From positions 1 through 64,000 of the forward strand of contig CAMBDW010000007.1 of NCBI GenBank assembly GCA_945865535.1: a DNA stretch of 64,000 bases. Reading direction: 5' to 3'. Each line of letters starts with the position of its first letter. Position 1 is the first letter of the stretch. The translations under genes and the position numbers were made by a program. The notes beneath the pieces are model-generated. The model had not been told where the DNA came from. It saw nothing but the letters and a program-made list of their open reading frames with translations, and ran no database searches. This DNA comes from Chryseobacterium gleum (lineage in GTDB: Bacteria > Bacteroidota > Bacteroidia > Flavobacteriales > BACL11). This document shows positions 4,901 through 48,580 of this stretch, piece after piece.

Positions 4901-6667
4901 CCAACTATTTATTTTACAGACTTATCTTTGAATGGTCCTTCATCTTGGTATTGGGAATTTGGGGATGGCAATACTTCCACTAATCAAAACCCAGTTCATA
5001 CTTATCTAACAAGTGGTATCTACTCAGTTAAATTAACTACAATAAATTCTTTTGGATCGGACAGTATCATTATTAATAATGCTATTACTATTATAGATGT
5101 TGATTTACAAACTATAGGAGACACTTCTTGCGGATCTGCTTCATTAAATTTAGTGGGCAACTCTGCATCTGGTATAATTAATTGGTATACCGATAGTGGT
5201 TTACAGAATCTTGTGGGTACAGGCGCTTCATTTACGACTCCAATATTAAGTAGTACAACTGCTTATTATGCTCAATCAGTATATGAGTTTAATACTGTTA
5301 ATGGCGGTCCTTTAAATAATACTATCGGAGGCGGTGGATTTTATAATCAGGACAGGCATTTGTTTCTTGATTGTTATGAACCTTCAAAATTAGTTTCAGT
5401 AGATGTTTATGCTGGAACTGCACAAGCCATAACATTTGAGTTAAGAGATAATACTAGTCAAGTGCTAGAGGATACTACTATTAATGTTCAACTTGGATTA
5501 AATACACTAGTTCTAAATTTTAATTTACCAATTATGAATAATATGGAACTAGGATTAAGTAGTGGTAATTCGAATTTATACAGAAATAGCTCAGGAGCTT
5601 CTTATCCATATCATATTGGTAGTTTAGCAAGTATAACTGGACATAATTCACCAAATAGTGCTAATTACCATTACTTTTTTTATAATTTCATATTAGCAAA
5701 ACAAGCTTGTAAATCAAGTGTTGAGCAGGTGATGGCTATAATTGACAATAATACCTCAAATACTACAGCTATAACTGCTTGTGATGCTTACACTTGGTCA
5801 GTAAATGGACAGACTTATACTTCAAGCGGAACTTATACTTACTTAACTTCAAATGCTAATGGATGTGATTCTACAGCAATTTTGAACTTAAATATAGTTA
5901 ATAATACATTAACTATTTTTCAAAACTTTTCTTTTTGTTATGGGGATAGTATAATGATTGGTACAAATACATATTATAACCCAGGATTTTTTACAGATTT
6001 ATTTCAAACTGTAAATGGATGCGATAGTATTGTAAATACATTGCTTACAGTAATTCCTGCAAATAATAATACTCAAAACATAGTGCTTTGTGATGGTGAT
6101 TCAGTTGTTGTTGGACCTAATATCTATTCGCAAAATGGCACATTTGTTGATACACTCTATAGTCTTAATGGTTGTGATAGTATTATTTCTACTACTATAG
6201 ATGTTTCTTATGTAGATGTTATTATTAACTGGAATAGTAATGAGCTTGTAGCTGATGTGATTACTGGTTCTGCTACTAGCTATTTATGGAATACTGGAGA
6301 AACTACTCAATTTATTACCCCAATATCATCTGGAACCTTCTGGGTAGTTGTTACTGATATTAATAACTGTATTTCAGATACTACCTATTATAATTATACT
6401 TCTACATCATTAATTGATGTACTAAAAAGTTCAATTAATATTTATCCGAACCCAACTATAGGAATGGTAAATGTGGAGTTTTTTAATACTTCAACTACAT
6501 CAATTATTTTACAAAACGTATTAGGAGAAAGGCTTGCTGAGGTTACTTATAGTGATAAAGGGACTATAAATACTCAATTTGATTTATCTAATTTTGCAAA
6601 AGGAATTTACTTTATTCATTTTAAAACAAATAATAGTGTTTTAACTCATAAAGTAAGTAAAAATTAA
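1946..6667 (+). CDS. Giant T9SS-exported multidomain beta-propeller protein
   Basis: A 1573-residue secreted protein. The ATG at 1946 gives a clean signal peptide (MRKFLFLLLFPTLTYS); the longer frame from 1877 runs back through the promoter and terminator. Domains in order: sortilin/VPS10-like propeller blades with repeated KSTNGG..W motifs (about 70-750), a PKD domain with WDFGDG (about 754-827), a CUB-like domain (about 839-967), a second PKD with WEFGDG (about 970-1044), an Ig-like stretch (about 1052-1115), an unassigned region (about 1115-1268), three GCDS cysteine repeats (about 1273-1420), and a T9SS type A sorting domain starting IYPNP (about 1491-1573). It should be exported and anchored or released at the cell surface as an adhesin or glycan/protein-binding factor; the ligand is unknown. 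The gene for a second such protein follows after 11 nt. Confidence 0.85.
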   Translation: MRKFLFLLLFPTLTYSQSWVDKMQDPNNNFYDTQKEFEEFWENKTIEKGKGWKQYKRWENFISPRVYPDGVQHPEILLEEYNNLQEANNQFLMLPPNVWEQVGPDNVPLESSGRKRGIGRVNSIAFHPTNPNIIYVGAPAGGFWKSLNNGQTWSTTTDFLTNLGVSDIAINPSNPDEIYIITGDRDAGDTYSYGLMKSTDGGSTFNLTGLSFNITNYYKGNRVLIDPSNTNTIIVATSNGIYRSVDAGASFVLTYSGINMTDIEFHTTNTNIIYGASKGNTSVYKSSDNGINWSQSGSGLPSTNSVVRGCVAVTLDNPQVVYAMFGDNSNGFYGVYKSTNEGATWTQQSNSPNLLGWEFDGSDNDGQAWYDLAFAVSPTDENTLFVGGVNCWKSTNGGVNWNINTHWYGASGSTYMHADEHMLKYNPLNNYIYSGNDGGLYYSDDNGNDWTDISDGLHITQFYSLGVSQTVQDRVITGAQDNGTFLKTNLNWDAVIGGDGMECIIDYTNSNTMYGALYYGDVRKSTNGGNSFSSIGPSNNGAWETPYALDKNNPNIIYIGYDELQKSVNGGSNWTQITNGQTNGGKIDEIGLSKSNSNVIFITDGADIFRTTNGGANWTQVNNNLPNKTITYVIVHPTDANKVWVTLSGYTVGEKVYKSTNGGNNWVNISGTLPNIPVNCIELDKTNNLETVYIGTDLGVFTSDSTLNDWNLFNNNSLPNVIVNELEIQYQSNKLFAATYGRGLWNIDLQITSPPTANFSYNDSIFCNVPSDVTFFNNSYYSNSYYWDFGDGSTSTSTNPTHTYTSYGLFTVKLIATGPLGVDSIIKQQIISIDQNNFCITTLPISGAGNTLTQCSGTLYDVGGPSGNYYDDTDSWLTIAPPGSNQITLTFNSFDAEAPSSSTFCNWDYLEIFDGPDLTYPSLGQFCNALTGSPGVIASSGGALTVLLHSDQSVTGSGFEADWICSFPTSPPVSSFNFSDSISCDPTIYFTDLSLNGPSSWYWEFGDGNTSTNQNPVHTYLTSGIYSVKLTTINSFGSDSIIINNAITIIDVDLQTIGDTSCGSASLNLVGNSASGIINWYTDSGLQNLVGTGASFTTPILSSTTAYYAQSVYEFNTVNGGPLNNTIGGGGFYNQDRHLFLDCYEPSKLVSVDVYAGTAQAITFELRDNTSQVLEDTTINVQLGLNTLVLNFNLPIMNNMELGLSSGNSNLYRNSSGASYPYHIGSLASITGHNSPNSANYHYFFYNFILAKQACKSSVEQVMAIIDNNTSNTTAITACDAYTWSVNGQTYTSSGTYTYLTSNANGCDSTAILNLNIVNNTLTIFQNFSFCYGDSIMIGTNTYYNPGFFTDLFQTVNGCDSIVNTLLTVIPANNNTQNIVLCDGDSVVVGPNIYSQNGTFVDTLYSLNGCDSIISTTIDVSYVDVIINWNSNELVADVITGSATSYLWNTGETTQFITPISSGTFWVVVTDINNCISDTTYYNYTSTSLIDVLKSSINIYPNPTIGMVNVEFFNTSTTSIILQNVLGERLAEVTYSDKGTINTQFDLSNFAKGIYFIHFKTNNSVLTHKVSKN
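5762..6208 (+). repeat. Three tandem cysteine-pair (GCDS) repeats in the 1573-residue protein
   Basis: Three consecutive units of about 49 residues share the pattern C-x2-D/GDS, IG or VNG, Y, SG/NG-T/F, DT/DL, GCDSxxxT. Each has one early Cys and one Cys in GCDS, presumably forming a disulfide within the unit. The same module occurs three times in the neighbouring protein. Confidence 0.7.
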
Positions 6668-6678
6668 AACTAATACGC

Positions 6679-8958
6679 ATGAAAAAAATACTTTTAGTTT
6701 TATTCTTTCCATTCTTTGTTTTTTCACAAAGCAGCTGGAATATGAACCTTTTAGGAACTTATGACTATCCAACAACTCAAGGAAATGACATTTGGGGCTG
6801 GGTAGATGCAAATTGGAATGAATTTGCTCTTGTTGGCCTACGTTCTGGAGTTTCCTGTGTAGATGTTACAAATCCTACAAATCCTGTTGAAATGTTTTTT
6901 ATTGCTGATCTTAATTCAACATGGAGAGATATTAAAACTTGGGGAAATTATGCCTATGTTACAACAGAGGCTAATGCTGGGCTATTAATTATTGATTTAA
7001 ATGATATGACGGGTAACACTTATTGGCACCGAACTAATTTTACAAATCCAACAACAGGAACAAGTCTATCTTTTACAAGCGCTCATAATATTTATATTGA
7101 TGAAAACGGGATTGCGTATATATTTGGTGCTGGTGGTGCCGGACCACAATCAAATGGAGCCATCTTTTTAGATGTAGCTACTAATCCTATTAATCCAGTA
7201 TATCTAGGAGAATGGAGTGAGCAATATATTCATGATGCTATGGTTAGGGGAGATACTATGTGGGCTGGATGTATCAATAGTGGTAAACTTTATGCTGTTG
7301 ATGTAAGTAATAAATCTAATCCTCTAACGCTTGGATCTGCTACTACTCCTAATGCTTTTACTCATAACGCTTGGGTAAGTGATGATGGAAATTATGTTTT
7401 TACTACTGATGAACAATCAGGAGCTTATTTAACTGCCTATGATGTTAGTGATGTAAATAATATTCAAGAAGTTGATAGGATTCGATCTAATTCTGGCTCT
7501 GGAACAATTCCTCACAATGTTCATGTTGATGGAAATTTTCTAATTACTTCTTATTATAGAGATGGAACGACTGTACATGATATTACGCATCCTAATTACA
7601 TGATAAAAGTAGCCCATTACGATTCTTATGCTGGTAGTGGAAATGGTTTTGATGGTTGTTGGGGGACTTATCCTTTTCTGCCATCAGGAAATATTATTTC
7701 TTCTGATATTAATAGTGGAGTGGGTGGCAAAGGTAAATTACTAATATATGGAAGAAATTTTCAGCAAGCATGTTATTTACAAGGAGAAATTACAGATTGT
7801 ATTAGTGGCTTGCCAATAAGCAATGTAAATGTTGAAATTATTAATACAACAGTAAGTGAGAGTACTAATTTGCTTGGTAAATATCAAACTGCTATTGTGG
7901 ATTCTGGGAGTTATCAGGTGGTGTATTCAGCAGTGGGTTATGAAAATGACACTGTTCTAATTAATTTGGATAATGGCATAATGATAACTCAAGATGTAGT
8001 GATGTGCCCTCCTTGCAGTACTTTTAATATTGTTTCAAATAATAATGCACAGATTTGTAGTGGCATGTCATATGTTATAGGAAATTCTTCTTACAATACT
8101 ACTGGAATATATGCTGATACTTTAGTGAATTATTTTGGATGCGATAGTATTGTACATACGAATTTAACCGTACTTAACGCTTTTTCTTTTTCAAATCCAC
8201 AATATATTTGCCAAGGAGAGTATTATCAAATAGGTTCAAATGTATATTCATCTCCAGGAAATTATACAGATACTTTTGTTGCTGTAACTGGCTGTGATAG
8301 TACTGTAAACACCAATTTAATTGTATATCCAATATATAACACTAGTCAATATATTGATATATGTAATGGTGATGTTTATGTAATAGGACAGCATGTTTAT
8401 AATGTTTCAGGTACTTATTATGATACACTAAGTAGTTCAACAATGTGTGATAGCATTGTTATCACACAATTAAATGTCTCAAATCTTGTAGGTATTTTAA
8501 GTGCAACTCCTCCTTTTCTAAATATGGCGGTTAACGGTGGAGGAACTCCTTATTCATATTTATGGAATACCTCAGAAACTACTCCACAAATTACGCCAAC
8601 AACTAACGGATGGTATTGGTGTATAGTGACTGATGTTAATGGGTGTATTGGAGATACTGCTTTTTATGAAGTAACTGGAATACTAACAGGAGTATTAGAT
8701 TATAGTATTAGTGACATAAAAATATACCCTAACCCAAGTAAAGATGTATTTAACATAAGCTTTACAAGTGAAGCTGTACAGAACTTAAAAGTTAGAGTAA
8801 TCAATTTAGTAGTAGAGGAGATTGTATTAGAAGACCTGGAACAATTTATTGGAGAGTACACTAAACAGATTAACTTAAAAGATAATACCAAAGGAATCTA
8901 CTTTTTAGAAATAGAAACTGATGCTGGAATTATCAATAAGAAATTAATTTTTCAATAA
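6679..8958 (+). CDS. T9SS-exported LVIVD-type propeller (choice-of-anchor B family) protein
   Basis: A 759-residue secreted protein with a signal peptide (MKKILLVLFFPFFVFS). Residues about 20-365 form a propeller of LVIVD-like repeats (VDVTNPTNP, LIIDLND, VDVSNKSNP), typical of the choice-of-anchor B family. A carboxypeptidase-regulatory-like beta-sandwich follows (about 365-440), then three GCDS cysteine repeats (about 447-603), a short WNTSETT module, and a C-terminal T9SS sorting domain beginning IYPNPS and ending KKLIF. It starts 11 nt behind the 1573-residue gene, shares its repeat module and probably the same transcript, and a strong terminator follows. Role: surface-attached or released binding protein; no catalytic residues are recognisable. 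Confidence 0.85.
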   Translation: MKKILLVLFFPFFVFSQSSWNMNLLGTYDYPTTQGNDIWGWVDANWNEFALVGLRSGVSCVDVTNPTNPVEMFFIADLNSTWRDIKTWGNYAYVTTEANAGLLIIDLNDMTGNTYWHRTNFTNPTTGTSLSFTSAHNIYIDENGIAYIFGAGGAGPQSNGAIFLDVATNPINPVYLGEWSEQYIHDAMVRGDTMWAGCINSGKLYAVDVSNKSNPLTLGSATTPNAFTHNAWVSDDGNYVFTTDEQSGAYLTAYDVSDVNNIQEVDRIRSNSGSGTIPHNVHVDGNFLITSYYRDGTTVHDITHPNYMIKVAHYDSYAGSGNGFDGCWGTYPFLPSGNIISSDINSGVGGKGKLLIYGRNFQQACYLQGEITDCISGLPISNVNVEIINTTVSESTNLLGKYQTAIVDSGSYQVVYSAVGYENDTVLINLDNGIMITQDVVMCPPCSTFNIVSNNNAQICSGMSYVIGNSSYNTTGIYADTLVNYFGCDSIVHTNLTVLNAFSFSNPQYICQGEYYQIGSNVYSSPGNYTDTFVAVTGCDSTVNTNLIVYPIYNTSQYIDICNGDVYVIGQHVYNVSGTYYDTLSSSTMCDSIVITQLNVSNLVGILSATPPFLNMAVNGGGTPYSYLWNTSETTPQITPTTNGWYWCIVTDVNGCIGDTAFYEVTGILTGVLDYSISDIKIYPNPSKDVFNISFTSEAVQNLKVRVINLVVEEIVLEDLEQFIGEYTKQINLKDNTKGIYFLEIETDAGIINKKLIFQ
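8017..8487 (+). repeat. Three tandem cysteine-pair (GCDS) repeats in the 759-residue protein
   Basis: Three units of about 52 residues with an early Cys (ICSGMSY, ICQGEYY, ICNGDVY), a YxIGxxxY core, then DT and C-DS. They match the repeats of the preceding gene in length and pattern. The third unit has MCDS in place of GCDS. Confidence 0.7.
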
Positions 8959-43239: not shown

Positions 43240-44520
43240 CTATTCTAAAGCTAATTTATATGCTTGAAGTGCTCTTTTACGAGCAAAATCATGCTCTACA
43301 ATAGATTCAATATAATTTTCTTTATCAAAATCTTTAATCCATCTTTTAATATATATAAAATCTTTATCAAATCTTTTTTGCTGAGTAATTGGATTGAAAA
43401 TTCTAAAATATGGAGCAGAATCACATCCAGTACCTGCTGCCCACTGCCAATTGCCATTATTAGAAGACAACTCATAGTCTAATAGTTTCAAACTAAAATA
43501 TCTTTCGCCCCAACGCCAATCAATCAATAAATGCTTGCATAAAAAACCTGCAACAATCATGCGAGCCCTGTTATGCATATAGCCAGTGATTTTTAATTCT
43601 TGCATTCCAGCATCTACAATTGGATATCCAGTTTTGCCATCACACCAATTTTGAAAATCTTTTTTATCGTTTTTCCATTGTATCTTATCATATTTCTTTT
43701 TAAAATTTGAATTTACCACATATGGGAAGTGAAATAAAATCTGCATAAAAAATTCTCTCCAAATTAATTCTGATAAAAAAGTAGTCTCATTATTTGGTAT
43801 CGAATTAATAACATGCCTTATACTAATAGTTCCAAAGCGAAGATGAACACTTAATGAAGTGCCTGCATTTAAGAAAGGATAATCTCTTTGGCTAGAATAA
43901 TTACGTGTCGATTCCAAGTTAAAATCTACTACTTTAATTTTAGACTTTAGAAAACCAATCTCAGATAATAACGGAAATTGATTCTTAATTTTTAAAAAAT
44001 TAGAAAAATCTAAAAAGATTTCAGTAGAAATAGATGCTTGCTTAAATTTTGAAAGCCATTTATTTTTATAAGCAGTAAAAACAGTATACGGTAAACTATT
44101 TTCTTTTAATATTTCTGTTGGTCCAAATATTACCTGATCTTTATATTGAAAATGGTGCTTCTTCTTTTTTTTCAGCAAATCACTAATTTTTTTATCACGA
44201 TCAATTGCGTAAGGCTCATAATCTAAATTGGAATACAAATTTTCAATCTCATACTCCTTTATTAAATTATTAAATACATTTATAGGCTTACCTTTAATAA
44301 CTAACAATGAAGAATTAACATTATTTAATCTTTTATTTATTTCTTCTAATTTTTGATAAATGAAGCTAATTCTCGCATCATCATTAGGTAAATTTTCTAT
44401 AATATCCTCATCAAAAATAAAGATCCCTAAAACAGGATTTCCTGATGACAAAGCTGAATTAAGTCCAATATTATCATCTAAACGCAAATCCCTTCTAAAC
44501 CAAAAGATATTCGTTTTCAT
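43240..44520 (-). CDS. phr: Deoxyribodipyrimidine photolyase (class I photolyase/cryptochrome family)
   Basis: A 426-residue FAD enzyme that splits UV-induced pyrimidine dimers using light. It opens with the photolyase domain FWFRRDLRLDDN; the FAD-binding half has LSVHLRFGTISIR, ELIWREFFMQ, MRELKITGY-type text (MQELKITGYMHNRARM), and NGNWQWAAGTGCD with electron-transfer tryptophans, then APYFRIFNP. It is 14 nt behind the SDR gene on the same strand, a pairing seen in other bacteria. CPD photolyase versus a DNA-binding cryptochrome cannot be decided by eye. Confidence 0.93.
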   Translation of the reverse strand: MKTNIFWFRRDLRLDDNIGLNSALSSGNPVLGIFIFDEDIIENLPNDDARISFIYQKLEEINKRLNNVNSSLLVIKGKPINVFNNLIKEYEIENLYSNLDYEPYAIDRDKKISDLLKKKKKHHFQYKDQVIFGPTEILKENSLPYTVFTAYKNKWLSKFKQASISTEIFLDFSNFLKIKNQFPLLSEIGFLKSKIKVVDFNLESTRNYSSQRDYPFLNAGTSLSVHLRFGTISIRHVINSIPNNETTFLSELIWREFFMQILFHFPYVVNSNFKKKYDKIQWKNDKKDFQNWCDGKTGYPIVDAGMQELKITGYMHNRARMIVAGFLCKHLLIDWRWGERYFSLKLLDYELSSNNGNWQWAAGTGCDSAPYFRIFNPITQQKRFDKDFIYIKRWIKDFDKENYIESIVEHDFARKRALQAYKLALE

Positions 44521-44534
44521 TTCTAAAGTAAAAA

Positions 44535-45197
44535 TTACAACTTTATTGAGGATATACCACCATCAATATTGAATACCTGACCAGTAACCCAACTCGATTT
44601 TTTAGATAATAAAAATTCTATAGCATATGAAATATCTTTAGCGCTACCAGTAGTTTTTAAAGGATGTCTTTCATTCATCATTTCTTTTTGTTTATCATTT
44701 CTGAAAAACCGTTTAGAAAGCTTAGTATTAATAAGTGATGGAGCAACGCAATTTACTCTAATATTTGGTGACCACTCAGCAGCAAGGCTTCTTGCTAAAG
44801 CCTCTAGAGATGATTTACACATAGCAATTGAAGAATGAAATGGCATTCCTGTGCTTGCCGCTACTGAACTGATAAAAACAATAGATGAGCCAATTGACAA
44901 CTTAGCCTCATAAAATTTTAAAATATTTAAAAGACCCAAAACATTTATATCGTAATCAGATTTAAAATCATTTATTTCTAATTGTCTGAATGGTTTTAAA
45001 ACAATAGTGCCAGGAAAATAAACAATACCATCAAGACTATCTATATCAAGATATGTTAATGGATTCAAAATGTCAAAATTATCTACACAACTAAATAAAG
45101 AATTTGTGCTCAATCTAATAAATTCATATTTATCTGAATAATTATCATATAAATGACAAGCAATATCACTGCTGGCTCCAACTAATAGTATTTTCAT
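44535..45197 (-). CDS. Atypical short-chain dehydrogenase/reductase-like protein
   Basis: A 220-residue Rossmann-fold protein of the SDR family, but atypical. The nucleotide loop is VGASSDIA (6-13) and lacks the usual GIG; the Ser of the triad is at 110-111; and the YxxxK motif reads IAMCK (124-128), so the catalytic Tyr is replaced by Ile while the Lys stays. The C-terminal WVTGQVFNIDGG is standard. It precedes the photolyase gene by 14 nt and probably shares its mRNA. It may be a non-catalytic NAD(P) binder or use another donor such as His121. Confidence 0.8.
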   Translation of the reverse strand: MKILLVGASSDIACHLYDNYSDKYEFIRLSTNSLFSCVDNFDILNPLTYLDIDSLDGIVYFPGTIVLKPFRQLEINDFKSDYDINVLGLLNILKFYEAKLSIGSSIVFISSVAASTGMPFHSSIAMCKSSLEALARSLAAEWSPNIRVNCVAPSLINTKLSKRFFRNDKQKEMMNERHPLKTTGSAKDISYAIEFLLSKKSSWVTGQVFNIDGGISSIKL

Positions 45198-45239: not shown

Positions 45240-46310
45240 TTAATAGAATTTAATATCTCTTACAGTGCCATTAACAATAATTGTATCAACAAAAGATGAT
45301 AAATCAAGATTGTATTTATAGATAGAATTTGGAGAATTGACATCATTCATATATAACATTTCATAATACACCGTAGTACTATCGTTTACTTCAAGAGATT
45401 CAATATTTGTATTAATCACGCTAGCATTGACACTCGCTAATGAAGTAACATTTAGAGTGTTTGAATTGAGTTTGTAAACGCCCCCTTCTGCTGTAAAATA
45501 ACATCTACTGTTATCAAAATTACTAATTAAATTTTGGGCGTTATATATTCCTGAAAGAATATCCGTACTATATACTTCATTGCTATATTGATTTATATCA
45601 GATAAAGAAGATGCTGTATTATTATTTGGATTTACTACATCATAAATTCCCTTGCATAATACTATTAATCTTCCAGCCTGTGTAAAAATTGCAGAATTAG
45701 GATTTTCTCCAACTTGAAGACTTCCTTCAAAATTAGCTAATGCTACTAAATTATCTCTAAACTCAATTACTACAACTGTTGAATCTTTTATTTGACTTGA
45801 TAATTCACCTCCATTTAAAACAAATGATTTGTATGAATTGCTTAAAATAAACACTGGACTAGTATTGTCTCCAGTTTCAATATCAGAAGTGATTTCCATA
45901 TTCTTAAGATCAACTACTTTTACTTTTGAATCCCCTTTATCTACTACAAAAAATCTATCATTACTTACAAAATCAAAATCGACAGGATTTACAAATCCAC
46001 TAATCATCCCCTGATGTTCAAATGTTTTTGCATCAACTACAATAATATAATTATCAGCTAAAATATAAGCTTTACCCCCATTGAATTTAATTTTCTTTGG
46101 ATTACTAATTGTGATATTATTAACCGTTTTATAAATCTGATTTATTACTTGTGCTAACGAATCTTTGTAATTATAAAAGCTAACGCCTATATCTGAAACA
46201 ATATACATTCCTTCTCCATAATTTTCATCAAAAATAGGCCCATCAGCCTCATCTTCTTTACATGAAGAAATAAGAAGTGTAGCTATTAGTAAATAATTGA
46301 ATAATTTCAT
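45240..46310 (-). CDS. Surface lipoprotein with a DUF5074/BtuG-like beta-propeller
   Basis: A 356-residue lipoprotein: signal MKLFNYLLIATLLISS then Cys17 followed by KEDEAD, an acidic tract like the Bacteroidota surface-export signal, so it should face outward. The body has propeller strands of the YncE/DUF5074 type (AYILADNYIIVVDAKTFE, DKGDSKVKVVDLKNME, VGENPNSAIFTQAGRLIVLC). This family includes BtuG, the high-affinity B12-capture protein of gut Bacteroides. It lies behind another propeller gene led by a cobalamin riboswitch. The ATG at 46310 is used because the longer frame runs back through a terminator. A weak -7 box lies 15 nt upstream. Confidence 0.75.
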   Translation of the reverse strand: MKLFNYLLIATLLISSCKEDEADGPIFDENYGEGMYIVSDIGVSFYNYKDSLAQVINQIYKTVNNITISNPKKIKFNGGKAYILADNYIIVVDAKTFEHQGMISGFVNPVDFDFVSNDRFFVVDKGDSKVKVVDLKNMEITSDIETGDNTSPVFILSNSYKSFVLNGGELSSQIKDSTVVVIEFRDNLVALANFEGSLQVGENPNSAIFTQAGRLIVLCKGIYDVVNPNNNTASSLSDINQYSNEVYSTDILSGIYNAQNLISNFDNSRCYFTAEGGVYKLNSNTLNVTSLASVNASVINTNIESLEVNDSTTVYYEMLYMNDVNSPNSIYKYNLDLSSFVDTIIVNGTVRDIKFY

Positions 46311-46325
46311 GTTTTTATTTTTTGG

Positions 46326-46333
46326 TAAAGATA
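46326..46333 (-). promoter_or_regulatory. Candidate -7 box of the lipoprotein propeller gene
   Basis: TATCTTTA on the minus strand differs from TAnnTTTG at the last base. It lies between the upstream terminator and the ATG and could give the lipoprotein its own transcript. Confidence 0.35.
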
Positions 46334-46334
46334 A

Positions 46335-46362
46335 AAAAAGCCAAGTAATACTCGGCCTTTTT
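46335..46362 (-). terminator. Terminator between the two propeller genes
   Basis: On the minus strand AAAAAGGCCGAGT pairs with ACTTGGCTTTTT around a 3-nt loop, with one mismatch and one bulge, and runs into a T tract. It should stop most transcripts from the riboswitch-led gene before the lipoprotein gene. Confidence 0.7.
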
Positions 46363-46406
46363 AATTTTAATGATAGAAGATAGTAGATTCTTTGCAAATA
46401 AAAAAT

Positions 46407-47612
46407 TTATTTAACAATAAAAATCTGCTTATTATCTTTTATATACATACCTCTCTTAATAAATCGATCATTGCTAATTAATCTACCAAGCATATCATAG
46501 TATTGATTAGAACTTTGATCAACATTATCTGAAACTACTGAAGAAATACCAGTTGTAGCACTTCTAATATCAAAAACAATGGTTCCTGGTGAAATTCCAC
46601 ATACAAAAGAAGAAAGTAAAAAGTTATTGGCATCATAGATATTAACTGAGCCTGAAGTAGCATAATCAGTTATACTTGCATACAGTAGAGTATTAATAGG
46701 ATCGTAAGATAAATCATAAAAACTTTGACTAATTGGTAATGGTGATCCTGTACTAGGTAATAAAGAGAGATCCCATTCATTTAAAATAGTATCTCCTGAA
46801 ATTTGATAATTGATTTTATTATCTCGCAAACATGATGTACCACAGCCAGTAGGAGCAGCAGCTAAATTGGTAGTAATAACAGAATTGGTTAATAAACTCA
46901 GTTGTGATATAGAAGATCCCGACCAATCTTTATTATTAATAGTGTAAATATGGTCTCCACTTTTAATCATATTATCAGGATTAATCCCATCTATTCCTAA
47001 ATCTATTTCGTTTAAATAAGCAAAAGTATTTAAATCCAATATCCCAACAAGTCCTTTATAATTACCCCATTCATAAGCATTATTTATTGCAACATAAAGC
47101 TTGTCATTATTAACAACTAAATTTTGTGTTGCCCATTTAGGCCCTGTTATAGTATCTATTTCTGTATGTAAACTTAAATCTGAAGTATTAAATACTTGTA
47201 AATACGAATTAAAAAATATTGGTGAAAATGTAGTATTATCATAATCTCCTCTAGTTACAATAATTTTATCATTCCAAACTGATAAATTACGGATACCATC
47301 TACTGCTTGAGTTGTAATTACATCATAGGTATTTTTATCATACTTATACAACATATTGTCTGCTGCAACATAAAAATAATTAGCATCAACAACTAAATCT
47401 GAAGCAAACCTTGCTGTATGCAAAGTGTCAACGCTAGTATAGGCTTGTGTAGTTGGATTATAAGAACCTAAAGTGGGTGGAACAATAGACTGATTTAAGT
47501 TATAATCAAAATAACCTTCATTTAAAACAATAACCTGATGAACATACTCTTGAGCTTTGGCAGCAGTTATTTGTACAGCCAAAACGAGCATACAAAATGC
47601 ACTTTTTTTCAT
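46407..47612 (-). CDS. Secreted BtuG-like beta-propeller with a short T9SS-type tail, under B12 riboswitch control
   Basis: A 401-residue exported protein: signal MKKSAFCMLVLAVQITAAKAQ, then QVIVLNEGYFDYN, the typical first blade of DUF5074/YncE-type surface propellers, and further blades (ASDLVVDANYFYVAADN, LVVNNDKLYVAINN). The C-terminus QYYDMLGRLIS..RGMYIKDNKQIFIVK resembles a shortened T9SS type A sorting motif, without the IYPNP half. A cobalamin riboswitch in its 5' leader implies expression when B12 is low, so it is a good candidate for extracellular corrinoid capture. No BtuB or ABC transporter gene lies nearby. Binding itself is inference. Confidence 0.75.
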   Translation of the reverse strand: MKKSAFCMLVLAVQITAAKAQEYVHQVIVLNEGYFDYNLNQSIVPPTLGSYNPTTQAYTSVDTLHTARFASDLVVDANYFYVAADNMLYKYDKNTYDVITTQAVDGIRNLSVWNDKIIVTRGDYDNTTFSPIFFNSYLQVFNTSDLSLHTEIDTITGPKWATQNLVVNNDKLYVAINNAYEWGNYKGLVGILDLNTFAYLNEIDLGIDGINPDNMIKSGDHIYTINNKDWSGSSISQLSLLTNSVITTNLAAAPTGCGTSCLRDNKINYQISGDTILNEWDLSLLPSTGSPLPISQSFYDLSYDPINTLLYASITDYATSGSVNIYDANNFLLSSFVCGISPGTIVFDIRSATTGISSVVSDNVDQSSNQYYDMLGRLISNDRFIKRGMYIKDNKQIFIVK

Positions 47613-47644
47613 AATAAATATTTTTTTTAATTTTTAAAAATCTT

Positions 47645-47670
47645 AAATACTCTTCTTCCAGAGAATATTT
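47645..47670 (-). promoter_or_regulatory. Hairpin between riboswitch aptamer and start codon (possible expression platform)
   Basis: On the minus strand AAATA-TT-CTC pairs with GAG-TATTT around an 8-nt loop, followed by AAGATTTTT. It lies 16 nt beyond the aptamer and 33 nt before the ATG, where a terminator or start-masking element is expected. Confidence 0.4.
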
Positions 47671-47683
47671 AACATAATGGCAT

Positions 47684-47831
47684 TTAGCAGGTCTTCTGAC
47701 TTGGTCCTCTGAATTGGCCTTCCCGTTGTTTAAACAGTGGCATTGCGGTATTCAAATTATACGAACCTTACAGCTTCTGGAAAAGTTGAGGCATCTCACC
47801 CCATTCCCTTTTACACTATCCTTTAGTGTAC
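47684..47831 (-). promoter_or_regulatory. Cobalamin (vitamin B12) riboswitch
   Basis: The minus strand carries the cobalamin aptamer signatures in order: AAGGGAATGGGGTGAGATGCC (47791-47811, shown here in part), GCCACTG (47735-47741), GGGAAGGCC, and the 3' box GTCAGAAGACCTGC (47687-47700). Spacing of about 150 nt is right for the class. It lies in the 5' leader of the 401-residue propeller gene and should reduce its expression when adenosyl- or methylcobalamin is plentiful. A 7-bp hairpin (47812-47830) precedes the core. Confidence 0.92.
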
Positions 47832-47842
47832 TAAATACAATA

Positions 47843-47850
47843 CGAAAATA
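47843..47850 (-). promoter_or_regulatory. Candidate -7 box of the riboswitch transcript
   Basis: TATTTTCG on the minus strand matches TAnnTTTG at all but one base. Transcription would start near 47837, just ahead of the aptamer, giving a leader of about 225 nt. The 9-bp repeat AGTGTACTA occurs on either side of it (47825-47833 and 47858-47866). Confidence 0.45.
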
Positions 47851-47965: not shown

Positions 47966-48580
47966 TTAGAAGGAATATTCTTTACATCCTTCTATTATTT
48001 TAAAAGGTGCGTGTACTTCATAATTTTGCCATTTCCTTTTGTAAACGCTTGTATTATTTGGGAAGCGAAATACTCTTTGAATATTATTATAACTTATTAT
48101 TTTTCTGAAAAAAGAAGGAACCAATGCTCCTGTCTCCAACAATAAACTTTGAGAATCAAATTCCAACTCAATCCTAACATTAACTTTATATGTTTTGGAT
48201 AACTCTCTCTCATATGCCTCTAAATCTTTCCAAGGCCCCCTATTTAGTTTTTCGTGCTGCAAAGCACAATTCAAATAAGAAAAGGTTGCTTTTAAGCTTT
48301 CATAATCGCAATTAAAAGCGGCAGCAGGAGCCAAATGGCCTTTATCCCATACATTCTTGTGGTAATCATTTTCATCAGAAGTTACTCCTTTAAAAGACTT
48401 GTCTTGTTTAAAATCCAATCCTTTACGATCATAAGCTTTTGTATGACAGGCTACTTCATATTCTAACCATAAGGGTTGTTGTTTTTTTTCAGAATAACAC
48501 ACCTCAAATATACCACTATCAACAAGCTGTTGAGCGGATAAAAACTGAACGGATAAGAAAAGAATAAATAAAATTCTCAT
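47966..48580 (-). CDS. Secreted DNA/RNA non-specific endonuclease
   Basis: A 204-residue exported nuclease of the NucA/EndA beta-beta-alpha-metal family. The signal peptide is MRILFILFLSVQFLSAQ. The active-site motif DKGHLAPAAAF places the general base at His82 (family consensus DRGH), and the metal-binding Asn lies in EKLNRGPWKDLE (Asn113 region) with Glu residues following. The chain is short for the family. It likely degrades extracellular or periplasmic nucleic acid for nutrients. It is on the minus strand upstream of the B12 region and has only a near-consensus -7 candidate (TAAGTTTA). Confidence 0.85.
   Translation of the reverse strand: MRILFILFLSVQFLSAQQLVDSGIFEVCYSEKKQQPLWLEYEVACHTKAYDRKGLDFKQDKSFKGVTSDENDYHKNVWDKGHLAPAAAFNCDYESLKATFSYLNCALQHEKLNRGPWKDLEAYERELSKTYKVNVRIELEFDSQSLLLETGALVPSFFRKIISYNNIQRVFRFPNNTSVYKRKWQNYEVHAPFKIIEGCKEYSF

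Follow-up and report, generated by a model that had tools for sequence, protein, structure and literature searches.

Results

Organization of the locus

The window analysed in this study is a stretch of 64,000 nucleotides from the genome G000 (1.51 Mb, 30 contigs, 94% complete). The features considered here are:

47669..47850, minus strand: cobalamin riboswitch aptamer (RF00174), full length
47632..47675, minus strand: A/U-rich hairpin and then GAUUUUUA, between aptamer and gene A (fold of 47600-47720)
46407..47612, minus strand: gene A, 401 aa, with signal peptide (about residues 1-20), BtuG-like seven-bladed propeller and short T9SS-type C-terminal tail (ORF, profile, AlphaFold model)
46410..46559, minus strand: residues 352-401, the C-terminal tail of A, which line up with the family's T9SS type A sorting domain (family alignment)
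46334..46362, minus strand: intrinsic-terminator-like hairpin between A and B (13 pairs and a T-run; -14.1 kcal/mol, z -4.43)
46326..46333, minus strand: promoter motif TATCTTTA, 15 bases before the ATG of B, resembling a Bacteroidota -7 element
45240..46310, minus strand: gene B, 356 aa, candidate BtuG-like surface lipoprotein with lipobox LISSC and acidic KEDEAD after the Cys (phmmer, profile, Foldseek)
44535..45197, minus strand: SDR-family oxidoreductase (Pfam adh_short_C2, 1.8e-36), downstream neighbour, not part of the system
43240..44520, minus strand: photolyase/cryptochrome (Pfam FAD_binding_7, 1.5e-70), downstream neighbour, not part of the system

A single cobalamin riboswitch precedes gene A

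Infernal cmscan detected the aptamer at window positions 47669-47850(-) with 96.6 bits (E 7.7e-23; RF00174 gathering score 31.5 bits), covering the full model (1-189); RF00174 has no second match anywhere in the genome. A sequence-only reading of the window had already recognised a cobalamin aptamer at this place; the covariance model agrees and makes it 13 bases longer. The A/U-rich hairpin and GAUUUUUA between aptamer and gene A form a possible, weak candidate for the expression platform, with a z-score that was not significant. Upstream of the riboswitch a secreted DNA/RNA non-specific endonuclease is encoded (window 47966-48580(-); PF01223, 4.5e-28).

Gene A encodes a distant relative of BtuG

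Searches with gene A alone against Pfam, NCBIfam and PDB sequences returned no match, and a scan of viral_contigs found nothing. The Pfam DUF5074 cut-off was not reached by A, and only 2/51 members of its family reach E<0.01 with this model. A profile of these 51 members, however, matched BtuG along the whole propeller (hhalign probability 99.1, E 1.5e-18, 316 columns) and BtuG in the PDB with E 3.4e-7. The AlphaFold (AF2) model of A has a pLDDT of 90 and a pTM of 0.82. With this model, the 13 best PDB matches in Foldseek were all BtuG (best E 1.5e-16; TM about 0.8 by target, 15% identity), and the next protein followed at 1e-10. Thus, the secreted BtuG-superfamily propeller that had been proposed behind the riboswitch is borne out by its signal peptide and by profile and fold matches. 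The search for DUF5074 failed for A and B individually, whereas a relation of both to BtuG was recovered at the level of profiles and folds.

The cobalamin pocket of BtuG2 contains the aromatic residues W194, Y239, W272, Y316 and Y335 (PMC10404256). By alignment, W194, Y239, Y316 and Y335 correspond to W182, W230, Y299 and Y317 of A, and these columns are aromatic in at least 98% of family members. As 26/328 columns of the A alignment are at least 80% aromatic, a four-of-five match would arise by chance with a probability of about 1.5e-4. W272, which contacts the upper ligand in BtuG2 (PMC10404256), aligns with Gly258 of A, which is not aromatic; the adjoining Cys257 is invariant in 51/51 members. 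One may speculate that Cys257 holds the cobalt by a thiolate contact.

Among described systems, A is closest to BtuG of Bacteroides (DUF5074/PF16819; BtuG2 BT1954, BtuG3 BT2095), with which it has in common the fold, full-length profile homology, the NEG... start and SPG... end motifs, by alignment four of the five named pocket aromatics, and control by a cobalamin riboswitch. It differs from BtuG in having a signal peptide and a T9SS tail in place of a lipobox, in its identity of about 15%, in falling below the DUF5074 cut-off, in the Gly beside an invariant Cys at the W272 position, and in residing in a genome without BtuB anywhere. BtuK1 (PDB 9s6c), BtuH and BtuJ (IPR027828/DUF4465) are, like the role proposed for A, B12-binding surface proteins for accessory capture in B12-regulated operons. 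BtuK1 is also propeller-like, but A matches BtuG far better; moreover, these proteins accompany BtuB systems in B. thetaiotaomicron, whereas A replaces BtuB. Our search of open-licence papers in PMC found no description of A.

The product of gene A is predicted to be T9SS cargo

The N-terminus of A (MKKSAFCMLVLAVQITAAKAQEYVHQ) ends in AKAQ, a signal-peptidase-I-like site, and has no lipobox. A type IX-like tail had been noted at its C-terminus from the sequence. The T9SS models TIGR04183 and PF18962 gave no significant match on the protein itself, but they recognise a type A sorting domain in 37/51 aligned members of the family, and the tail glycines G376 and G388 are invariant in 51/51. The A protein of the window is one of a set whose tail is shortened (YDMLGR...RGMYIKDNKQIFIVK) and escapes the HMMs; three further secreted proteins of G000 terminate in this short tail as well. 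The genome also encodes SprA of the T9SS (2698 bits). The tail of A is read as T9SS-type because it can be recognised through its family and through these other secreted proteins, so that the earlier assignment stands by relationship and not by a direct model match. Secreted proteins with such a shortened T9SS-like tail are found at L206 and L207 (G000 contigs C1 and C9; e.g. RIFDVLGREWKSNFADLPKGVYIINGKKVFKTN), and the tail is possibly a lineage-specific sorting tag. In one A homolog (L055:2236-3834, G005), the short tail is replaced by an extension with an apparently fibronectin-like and a plastocyanin-like domain. In general, cargo of the T9SS is either attached to lipopolysaccharide at the surface or released.

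Gene B encodes a BtuG-like lipoprotein, probably in a separate unit

For gene B the ATG at 46310 (MKLFNYLLIATLLISSCKEDEADG) was taken as the start; a TTG at 46397 was considered and rejected. Gene B matches BtuG structures in phmmer (E 4e-7), its profile matches the BtuG of the family (hhalign E 5.6e-39), and its top Foldseek matches are BtuG; a DUF5074 search with B alone gave no match. Cys17 is invariant in 15/15 B proteins. Together with LISSC and KEDEAD, these matches uphold the proposal that B is a BtuG-like lipoprotein paralog with an acidic surface-export signal. B is probably not part of the riboswitch unit, because a strong terminator and a Bacteroidota-type promoter motif lie between A and B, which speaks against the riboswitch-controlled operon of both genes that the sequence-only reading had envisaged. 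The motif TATCTTTA resembles the Bacteroidota -7 element, which has the consensus TAnnTTTG. Upstream of B it is kept as TATCTTTA(C) or TATCTTTG in L048, L056, L064, L065, L067, L050 and L054, and G+C-rich hairpins with T-runs occupy the same place in the BtuB-type relatives L065, L050 and L054. Readthrough from A into B is possible.

The same reading had combined A and B into a two-component, riboswitch-controlled B12 capture pair. B does follow A on the same strand and both show BtuG homology. However, of the five named pocket aromatics of BtuG2, B retains a single one (Y223 at the Y239 position, by profile alignment). Within the family, B accompanies either A or BtuB-BtuG, and outside the family most A loci have no B beside A. 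We therefore doubt that B has a corrinoid role, and with the terminator and promoter motif between the genes we consider such a pair quite improbable. Behind B, the SDR oxidoreductase and the photolyase follow on the same strand (window 43240-45197(-)), an order that is kept in the related genome G017.

Relatives of A follow a cobalamin riboswitch

A scan of GTDB species identified relatives of A at the loci of at least 99 species. Most belong to the Flavobacteriales (Crocinitomicaceae, Cryomorphaceae) and some to the Chitinophagales and Saprospiraceae; almost all are uncultured. Since a plain pattern for the riboswitch core recovered only 20/29 known sites, we used a covariance model of 22 local riboswitches instead. 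With this model, a riboswitch was detected immediately before A, in the same orientation, in 68 of the 80 A loci that were kept; of the 12 others, four begin at or inside A and contain no upstream DNA. An early-branching sister clade (L168, L169, L171, L175 and L176) has no riboswitch upstream. When the neighbours of A were scanned for a receptor partner, none recurred, and the commonest downstream genes (clusters c2-c4) are apparently unrelated.

Because most genomes are MAGs, one might suspect that A-type loci result from assembly or binning errors. One riboswitch contig with a TonB-dependent transporter (TBDT; L066, contig C25 of G016) does look like contamination from another phylum; the family BtuB profile had no match on it and it was set aside. 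The A locus, however, was confirmed in 99 relatives whose sequences come from many independent assemblies, on long contigs and with conserved flanks, which makes an artefact extremely unlikely.

A takes the place of BtuB-BtuG at a conserved locus

The riboswitch is present in 46/60 relatives and nearly always single within the family. In the commoner layout it is followed by a TonB receptor (about 620 aa), a lipoprotein (about 350 aa) and usually B; in a minority layout it is followed by A and, in most cases, B. The receptor profile matches PDB 8bmx_C (E 1.6e-120), the lipoprotein profile matches PDB 8p97_B (E 4.8e-89), and DUF5074 is matched in 16/16 of the lipoproteins; by these profile criteria, the two are true BtuB and BtuG. 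BtuB-BtuG complexes of the kind known from PDB 8bmx, 8p97 and 8blw are thus encoded in sister genomes at the riboswitch locus that A holds here, whereas A-type loci lack both proteins and encode no barrel partner with A.

A tree of gene B from both layouts requires five changes of the layout label, at least four of them forced by strongly supported branches, a count that depends on gene B, which could itself have recombined. B of the window pairs with B of the BtuB-type genome G017 at 100/99. Between G000 and G017, the riboswitch is homologous (78%), the alignment finds no similarity over the coding region of its unit, and homology resumes at about window position 46375, before the terminator and promoter of B, and continues through B, the SDR gene and the photolyase (71%). 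As judged from this alignment, the swapped segment begins shortly behind the riboswitch and ends shortly ahead of the terminator and promoter of B. Within the family, the A genes mostly cluster with one another, whereas the B genes beside them do not, a pattern suggestive of cassette exchange through recombination. Judged by locus comparison, A is a substitute for BtuB and BtuG together at a conserved riboswitch locus.

On the opposite strand, a conserved cluster of a lipoprotein, a TonB receptor (736-740 aa) and a secreted protein (about 413 aa) adjoins the riboswitch gene in L057 and L102 (G026) and in L063 and L070. It lies beside A in G026 and beside BtuB-BtuG in L063 and L070, and is cut off in L070.

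A and BtuB are not found in the same genome

No BtuB was found in the window or in the rest of G000. Among 52 genomes of the family, A occurs in 8, BtuB in 32 and both in none, an outcome with a chance of about 1.7e-4 (hypergeometric, kinship ignored). Within the order, nine of 296 genomes of at least 90% completeness carry A, and all nine are without BtuB, which is common among the others. The loci led to 41 more A genomes (two of them duplicates), in which the best BtuB score was 143 bits and most scores were far lower, where true BtuB carriers score about 300 bits or more. With overlaps removed, so that the order contributes six further genomes, BtuB was found in 0/53 A-bearing genomes, most of which are MAGs, so that single absences may be gaps. 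The absence of BtuB beside A, pointed out earlier for the window, therefore extends to the whole of G000 and to every A-bearing genome checked.

B12 demand and candidate transporters

G000 encodes MetH, methylmalonyl-CoA mutase (MCM) and IcmF and, on the basis of these genes, is an organism that needs B12. Its proteins contain 14 TBDT plug matches, none of them clearly BtuB. The TBDT at L084:5790-7838 (contig C2 of G000; 682 aa; the entry is also given as 5775-7838) has TonB-B12 as its best NCBIfam match, with 134 bits against a cut-off of 600, and scores 129 bits for TonB-hemin. An FMN_bind gene precedes it and no B12 gene lies beside it.

These transporters bear on the view that A and an unlinked TBDT make up an ordinary pair of the BtuBG kind, the receptor having diverged and moved and A being BtuG with another anchor. 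G000 has candidates for such a receptor, the L084 protein foremost. Yet the latter scores almost equally for hemin and stands in the FMN_bind context, BtuB-type genomes also contain TBDT matches comparable in size and aligned length, and the best BtuB scores of A genomes (at most 143 bits) belong to proteins whose kinds vary from genome to genome. We regard this view as conceivable but rather unlikely.

At the inner membrane, BtuC/FecCD is absent from G000 and from every tested genome of its family (f1), whether of A or BtuB type, and of f9. Both f1 and f9 are small-genome Flavobacteriales, and in G000 this absence goes with three encoded B12-dependent enzymes. BtuC is present in most tested Crocinitomicaceae-type A genomes, themselves without BtuB, in one case within a set of periplasmic binding protein, permease and ATPase. 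Loss of BtuC as a companion of A was considered and rejected, since BtuC is missing in BtuB-type family members and present in many A genomes. As its distribution does not follow A versus BtuB, the predicted change at the outer membrane is independent of that at the inner membrane.

The atypical inner-membrane importer might also be taken to mean that A, while secreted and repressed by B12, serves another function, for example as a surface receptor for another ligand or as a scavenger of B12 attached to other molecules, and that B12 enters A-type cells by a route unrelated to A. Propellers are versatile, and corrinoid binding by A is a prediction. However, the exact replacement of BtuB and BtuG under the same riboswitch, the conservation of the pocket and the BtuG-specific fold match argue against another function, which we consider improbable.

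Discussion

The outer-membrane entry for B12 that is described as standard in Gram-negative bacteria is BtuB. We consider it likely that A is a T9SS-exported corrinoid-capture protein of the BtuG fold that takes over the locus from BtuB-BtuG, with corrinoid binding and a partner transporter as its predicted parts. The class of the riboswitch suggests an OFF switch, which B12 shortage would free, and A would consequently be made when B12 is scarce. A would then be exported by the T9SS to the cell surface, where, unlike BtuG, it would not be lipid-anchored. Its fold, pocket and locus suggest that it binds corrinoids in a pocket homologous to that of BtuG. A has no transmembrane barrel and thus could not by itself replace the transport step of BtuB. 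Potentially, it hands B12 to another TonB-dependent outer-membrane carrier that is not linked to a riboswitch. In a more far-reaching version, the A family would be the core of a BtuB-independent corrinoid route, perhaps with Cys257 on the cobalt, a dedicated and so far unrecognised outer-membrane carrier and, in the small-genome families, an unrecognised inner-membrane importer, as BtuC is absent there. This version we regard as doubtful.

In summary, a riboswitch-controlled propeller that replaces BtuB-BtuG and never occurs with BtuB in the examined genomes points to an undescribed way of B12 capture. BtuB is missing from a large group of aquatic Bacteroidota that are represented almost entirely by MAGs, and those members that were checked encode B12-dependent enzymes. 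In G000 the only gene under a B12 riboswitch encodes a secreted propeller, which is a concrete candidate for another means of B12 capture. If B12 uptake were predicted from BtuB and BtuG alone, organisms of the A type would be misjudged.
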